In this document: piece after piece, positions 60,171 through 61,010 of the stretch
Numbering within the stretch: the stretch's first letter is position 1
Layout: the number at the start of each line of letters is the position of its first letter
Origin: Bugula neritina
Taxonomy: Eukaryota > Bryozoa > Gymnolaemata > Cheilostomatida > Bugulidae
Direction of reading: 5' to 3'
NCBI GenBank assembly: GCA_964035545.1
Contig: OZ037772.1
Location: 1,823,001 to 1,887,000 of the forward strand
Length of the DNA stretch: 64,000 nucleotides
Made by a program: the position numbers and the translations under genes
Notes under the pieces: model-generated
The model's database searches: none
Told to the model about the DNA's origin: nothing
The model's input: only the letters and a program-made list of their open reading frames with translations

Positions 60171-60482
60171 TCCTATAACAGTTCATTGAGTGTGGAGAAA
60201 GGCACTTCGATTTTGAACAAGATGCCACCCTTTTAGTGTAACTATAACAATACTGACGCTGCTATGAAAAGCAATGATATGATGATTGCACTCCTGCATG
60301 TTTAGGTTCAGATTATTTAGAGTAGCAAATATATTTACAAGGTATATATGTAGTATACAGTTTAAAAAGATTGACTATTACATAGCTGCTAAAAGGTGGC
60401 CTATTATTTTTAGCAAATTTTTTGACTTCCATTTGAAAGTAGCACAGAAAGCAGTTAGGGTAGAGTAATTAATAAACGAATG

Positions 60483-60546
60483 GTACTCTGTTCTGTGCTG
60501 ATGAGGGGACAAACCCGAAACAGCTGCTGTCCACAGATTGAGGTAT
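60483..60546 (+). ncRNA. Type I hammerhead ribozyme, copy 1
   Basis: Core CTGATGA at 60498-60504. Stem II GGG (60505-60507) with CCC (60514-60516) around loop GACAAA. GAA at 60517-60519. Stem III ACAG (60520-60523) with CTGT (60527-60530), loop CTG. Cleavage triplet GTC ending at 60531. Stem I CTGTG (60493-60497) with CACAG (60532-60536), extended by U-A and, past an internal loop, CTC with GAG. All invariant core bases are present. The short stem III and open stem I define type I. Confidence 0.85.
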
Positions 60547-60638
60547 ATATATATATATATATATATATATATATATATATATATATATATATATATATAT
60601 ATATACATATATATATATATATATATATATATATATAC
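60544..60638. repeat. (TA)n tract between ribozyme units
   Basis: Nearly pure TA dinucleotides with one CA interruption. Tyr/Ile frames here are products of the repeat. Confidence 0.95.
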
Positions 60639-60690
60639 ATTTGAAAGTAGCACAGAAAGCAGTTAGGGTAGAGTAATTAATAAACGAATG

Positions 60691-60754
60691 GTACTCTGTT
60701 CTGTGCTGATGAGGGGACAAACCCGAAACAGCTGCTGTCCACAGATTGAGGTAT
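60691..60754 (+). ncRNA. Type I hammerhead ribozyme, copy 2
   Basis: Base-for-base identical to copy 1 at an offset of 208. Core CTGATGA at 60706-60712, predicted cleavage after C60739. Confidence 0.85.
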
Positions 60755-60932
60755 ATATATATATATATATATATATATATATATATATATACATATATAT
60801 ATATATATATATATATACATATATATATATATATATATACATATATATATATATATATATATATATATATATATATATATATATATATATATATATATAT
60901 ATATATATATATATATATATATATATATATAT
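60752..60932. repeat. (TA)n tract after the second ribozyme unit
   Basis: About 90 TA dinucleotides with a few ACATATA interruptions, ending about 80 bases before the ATG of the next gene. Confidence 0.95.
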
Positions 60933-61010
60933 GGAGGTCAAGGCCAGCAACGCAATATCAAGGTCAACTGGAAGAAAGTAGTTTTAGGTCACGACTTGTC
61001 ATTCTCAATT

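Follow-up and report, generated by a model that had tools for sequence, protein, structure and literature searches.

We analysed a 64,000-nt stretch of the genome of the bryozoan Bugula neritina (contig OZ037772.1, positions 1,823,001 to 1,887,000 of the forward strand; hereafter the window), in which two identical hammerhead ribozymes stand in tandem at 60430-60932. Judged by its sequence, this locus represents a degenerate member of a non-long terminal repeat (non-LTR) retrozyme family of the animal type, a mobile element found in hundreds of places in the genome. The element is probably copied as an RNA circle by enzymes of the Penelope-like elements (PLEs) resident in the same genome, and the window copy would have been truncated and then duplicated.

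The window locus contains two identical non-repetitive units of 116 bp, 60430-60545 and 60638-60753, which lie 208 bp apart; TRF gave the same tandem period of 208. By direct reading, the hammerhead core CTGATGA was located at 60498-60504 and 60706-60712, together with a 3-bp stem II (GGG/CCC) followed by GAAA, a 4-bp stem III with a 3-nt loop (ACAG-CTG-CTGT), and a stem I made up of TCTGTG/CACAGA (6 bp), an internal loop and an outer stem. H17 is the C at 60531 and at 60739, and the predicted cuts fall directly after these bases. Helix I is the open helix, so the ribozymes are of type I. A preliminary description of this DNA had proposed two identical tandem hammerheads, and direct reading, a hammerhead scanner and reversed controls confirmed the pair. 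Its complete core, 3-bp stem II, minimal stem III with a 3-base loop and stem I with an internal loop were likewise found, as were the cuts 208 nt apart, as predicted sites; the unit that it gave as 120 bp is identical in both copies, but its non-repetitive part measures 116 bp.

Across 215.8 Mb of genome, a 29/30-letter core pattern had 119 exact matches (55 + 64), whereas the reversed control had 0. With a generic pattern that picks up further hammerhead families as well, 428 matches were obtained versus 14 in the control. The scanner returned exactly the two copies from the 64-kb window and none from the reversed window. Chance occurrence of the hammerhead was ruled out by the zero control matches of the core pattern and the scanner. 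The fold of the 116-nt unit was no better than that of shuffled sequences (z -0.65), and self-cleavage of the window ribozymes is a prediction.

The flanks of the genomic loci revealed the true element, a 272-nt unit present in 1-3 tandem copies, with a 271-nt subfamily (L068). The family shows the traits of animal non-LTR retrozymes: a type I catalytic core with stems I-III, a small monomer in the range of about 150-450 bp, a GC content below 50% (0.456), tandem arrangement and many loci. The self-paired circle of animal retrozymes is also matched in the predicted fold of the 272-nt circle, which reached -103.5 kcal/mol versus -68.0 (standard deviation 4.6) for 100 swap shuffles, z about -7.7. 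In an alignment of 24 distinct monomers, 2 of the 89 consensus pairs carried a compensatory change, each in 3 sequences, and covariation support for the circle fold is weak. The 45 loci surveyed are part of several hundred and were picked by ribozyme similarity; therefore, conservation of the ribozyme among them is no evidence of constraint. Seven of the 53 pieces mapped in these loci were identical to the 272-nt reference unit. Clear target site duplications were not seen by eye at some loci lacking a 5' TA tract, the only ones inspected for them, and TA on both sides would mask any. Other element classes were tried and rejected: a plant-type LTR retrozyme (the open helix is I, not that of type III, and no LTR pair was seen around the units), a long satellite array (no mapped piece exceeds 3 units), and a tRNA-like short interspersed nuclear element (SINE; ARAGORN found no tRNA in L014, L068 or L067). 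Two variants were observed: at L039 (1281-1553) the retrozyme carries an 8-nt duplication within hammerhead stem III, and at L013 (1011-1180) a palindromic nest inside TA is made up of pieces of 62-68 nt that contain the ribozyme alone and lie in both orientations.

The window copy is a fragment of this family. Each of its two copies holds only about 67 nt of retrozyme sequence, 60480-60546 and 60688-60754, spanning circle positions 220 to 15 with 98.5% identity to the 272-nt reference unit by blastn. On the forward strand, copy 1 begins with a 50-nt non-retrozyme flank (60430-60479; blastn placed the 5' retrozyme border at 60480), followed by the 5'-truncated fragment with its hammerhead at 60484-60545, and ends in a (TA)n tract at 60544-60637, its insertion border as seen by TRF and the junction survey. 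The flank then recurs identically at 60638-60687, followed by the second fragment with its hammerhead at 60692-60753, and a (TA)n tract with CA interruptions at 60752-60932 (TRF) forms the 3' border of the locus. The 116-bp unit, used as a genome query, gave 42 matches, of which only the two window copies were full-length; all others were confined to the 66-nt ribozyme part, with 96-99% identity. The upstream 50 nt (unit positions 1-50) occurred in no other scored match, nor at any other examined locus, the best 40 of 762 candidates having been scored, so that a stray 50-nt copy without a ribozyme could escape. Within the same best 40 of 762 candidates and the examined loci, there were no dispersed copies of the 208-nt window unit. 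A like event was found at L021, where two copies 461 bp apart are both truncated at position 84 and have a flank in common. In the simplest reading, the window copy would be a single 5'-truncated insertion that was later tandem-duplicated locally together with its flank. The number of TA repeats sets the 208-nt spacing between the two cuts, and a transcript across both ribozymes could still release a 208-nt RNA. The preliminary description had taken a 208-nt, retrozyme-like unit for the monomer: the ribozyme does belong to a multicopy family of retrozyme type, but the family monomer is 271-272 nt. The microsatellite that it placed inside the RNA circle proved to be an insertion border at most loci. 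It had also held that occurrence in only two genomic copies would speak against mobility; this does not apply to the ribozyme, with its 119 exact cores, but holds, as tested, for the upstream 50 nt.

We mapped the 53 pieces on the circle, with position 1 as the first base past the cut and duplicates removed before counting. For 52 of the 53 pieces, the 3' end lay 9-18 nt beyond the cut: at position 15 in 42, at 10 in 7, and at 9, 13 and 18 in one each; the remaining end, at 6, is an internal break in L037. The 5' ends were scattered round the circle with an excess at 6-16 (10/53), which corresponds to whole laps; 23 of the 53 pieces exceeded 272 nt and the longest inserts reached three laps. 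All 53 pieces crossed the ligated cleavage junction. A linear self-cut monomer ends at 272, and copying from 9-18 on it would yield 9-18 nt; therefore, the junction was intact in the template, which was either a ligated circle or an uncut multimer. A nearly fixed, oriented 3' end combined with scattered 5' ends points to reverse transcription from a fixed start. TA tracts of at least 10 nt bordered the 3' side in 47/53 pieces and the 5' side in 39/53. A second sample comprised 46 of the 445 retrozyme 3' boxes in the genome, those inspected on contig 1, and included 7 internal tandem junctions, 36 junctions into TA and 3 elsewhere. The first 60.4 kb of the window contain 28 nt in total in pure TA arrays of at least 8 units.

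PLEs with a reverse transcriptase (RT), a GIY-YIG endonuclease and minimal hammerheads reside in the same genome (PLE1, PLE2, PLE-a and PLE-b). In the PLE1 RT, YRDDG is invariant across 28 aligned sequences, and we take such YxDD-type motifs as marks of a PLE RT. Pfam gave no match for PLE1 or L009, a PDB sequence search with PLE1 found nothing, and a model of PLE1 residues 1-226 had no clear match in a re-ranked list, a list that tests nothing. PF26215 was given for many of the at least 120 homologues, three of which bear species names, presumably cnidarian, and share 51-55% identity. The GIY-YIG endonuclease is C-terminal. A direct endonuclease query of the genome hit 97 places with E values of 10 or less; 85 of these values were below 0.1, and the lowest was 0.002. 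The PF01541 profile had one match, which we take to be an SLX1-type gene. The minimal hammerheads occur in a setting of terminal repeats, inverted repeats and an optional tail; those of PLE1 and PLE2 have an imperfect stem II and were identified solely by visual inspection. PLE-a has 134 tails, and the 100 of these that were listed included 31 outward pairs, 26 of them with TA at exactly one side.

The PLE ends can be compared with those of the retrozyme. The PLE copies sampled run into (TA)n either +56-65 or +121-133 beyond their own ribozyme cuts, distances taken from loci near retrozymes except for family B, and 60 of the 134 PLE-a tails end in TA, the sole unbiased count. PLE sequence adjoined 10 of the 45 retrozyme loci, and one junction joined a PLE tail directly to a retrozyme. 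Two of 80 retrozyme places lay within 2.5 kb of an endonuclease match (0.22 expected; maximum 2 in 300 shuffles), and 3 of 54 were close to a PLE-a tail (expectation 0.12; shuffle maximum 1), with adjacent retrozyme matches merged by hand, the lists limited to the first 100 places, the PLE-a list running through contig 5 and the length of contig 6 assumed. A search for a PLE or other RT with matching ends had been suggested beforehand: PLEs with (TA)n ends were found, at start distances that differ from those of the retrozyme. A further hammerhead family in (TA)n, family B (L066, contig 1, ~678.7 kb; L067, contig 1, ~16876.3 kb), gave 72 matched rows from the best 40 of 227 candidates. Its copies often form inverted pairs, head to head, together with a 44-nt piece; the family may be a PLE terminal repeat or a derivative of one.

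The cycle that we favour would begin with transcription of a tandem retrozyme copy, whose hammerheads would cut the transcript into 272-nt monomers. A host ligase would close these into circles, as proposed by analogy with the animal retrozymes in the literature. A resident PLE would supply the RT/GIY-YIG endonuclease, which would nick a TA tract already in place, and the TA primer would begin the cDNA within the circle, at the GGUAU or GAUUGA about 10-18 nt beyond the cut on its 3' side. The RT would then travel 0.2 to 3 laps round the ring, and the 5' end of the cDNA would be joined to a TA site or to other DNA. At the window, the RT would have halted after about 67 nt, and the block of flank, ribozyme and (TA)n, 208 bp in all, would later have been duplicated in tandem at the DNA level, as at L021.

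Several observations weigh against this cycle. No Rfam family reached its gathering score in the window, the best hammerhead being RF03152 at 16.9 bits with a cut-off of 56.3, and the nearest-neighbour model favours an alternative fold of the window module (-17.1 versus -10.7 kcal/mol for the hammerhead fold). Three of 39 sampled terminal retrozyme ends do not enter TA. The retrozyme start (+9 to +18) differs from the PLE starts (+44 to +133). Most PLE junctions come from loci that were selected because they carry a retrozyme in TA, which biases the TA ends; the coordinate-based enrichment near PLEs rests on few cases, and this neighbourhood may reflect just a common TA target. Finally, RVT_1 (PF00078) matches to RTs of the long interspersed nuclear element (LINE) type are abundant, at least 150 in the best 150 of 2124 candidates. 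An RT fragment in the window itself (7728-8720; PF00078, E 4e-16) is probably LINE-like.

A LINE-type RT with a preference for (TA)n could move retrozymes in a SINE-like manner, with PLEs merely having the same target. Its open reading frames are very common in the genome, and LINE-driven copies, too, are typically 5'-truncated with a fixed 3' end. We nevertheless regard this as unlikely, since the PLEs present here likewise run into (TA)n, at distances from their hammerheads that are similar, and one junction fuses the two elements. Spread at the DNA level with no RNA step, in which tandem repeats would be released as circles that insert again into TA tracts, or would expand by unequal exchange, would suit the local duplications at the window and L021 and the proneness of TA tracts to breakage, but it is very unlikely because DNA circles would open anywhere, whereas nearly all pieces share a single orientation-specific 3' end with scattered 5' ends. 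That the 208-nt window unit is itself the monomer, as two direct repeats with one ribozyme each might suggest, is hardly credible, given its upstream 50 nt, which had no match elsewhere among the scored candidates and examined loci, the different body of the 272-nt family to which its ribozyme belongs, and the comparable duplication at L021.

PLE-driven copying might also account for some of the TA tracts themselves. It is conceivable, though doubtful, that the telomerase-related PLE RT adds or expands TA when priming on the circle, and that PLEs, along with the circular RNAs that parasitise them, give rise to many of the long TA microsatellites in this genome. TA is longer on the 3' side of the retrozyme (median 64 versus 29 nt on the 5' side) and also more frequent there (47 versus 39 of 53), and some copies, including that in the window, are followed by a long TA tract but lack one on the 5' side. 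Against this, 13 of 94 long TA arrays in the examined loci and the window touch no library element, and most of the others touch a retrozyme since the loci were chosen for one. At L038, copies of CTCTCTTTAGTGGTAAACTATACACCAT flank TA arrays (1192-1273 and 1771-1885), in one case as an inverted pair; this is perhaps another element sitting in TA.

Elsewhere in the window, we found a transposase remnant (10933-11589) that retains TNP-like RNase H and GTP-binding insertion domains and, by TRF, long tandem arrays of a 26-bp unit (17026-17699), of a 17-bp unit in 72 copies (18772-19990) and of (AGT)n in about 188 copies (43696-44259).

How animal retrozymes re-enter DNA is an open question, on which the junctions described here bear. 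They locate the start of copying directly past the ribozyme cut, at TA, and show that the cut was resealed or never made. Their logic matches that of the resident PLEs, one junction being a fusion of the two, and the PLE proposal becomes directly testable. We found no report of such a retrozyme junction in the open-licence literature. Animal retrozymes have been described, with PLEs named only as a strong candidate for their mobilisation (PMC7229834). The present family resembles those animal non-LTR retrozymes (Cervera and de la Pena 2020, PMC7229834) in its type I hammerhead, GC content below 50%, co-resident PLEs, dispersed mono- to multimers and self-paired predicted circle, and its 272-nt monomer lies within their range of 170-400 nt. 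It differs in that a single site beyond the cut, in (TA)n, is where most copies end; the main text of that paper contains neither "microsatellite" nor "dinucleotide", and it gives target site duplications, when present, as longer than 4 bp. Arrays here have up to 3 units among the 53 pieces, versus up to 62-mers there (PMC7229834). Plant LTR retrozymes are likewise non-autonomous, ribozyme-bearing retroelements with a proposed spread by RNA circles (PMC4918200, PMC7229834, PMC7761336), but they carry type III hammerheads in LTRs of about 350 bp and 4-bp target site duplications (PMC7229834, PMC7761336), whereas the present family has type I ribozymes and no LTR pair was seen. Poseidon of Anolis, PAc (Frangieh et al. 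2024, PMC11167929), is alike in its RT, which begins copying within the template on the 3' side of the hammerhead, in its AT-rich targets and in two start sites that define an optional "tail". However, the PAc start lies about 111-118 bp into the open reading frame and is not homologous to the target (PMC11167929), whereas the retrozyme start lies 9-18 nt past the cut and has TA in common with its target.
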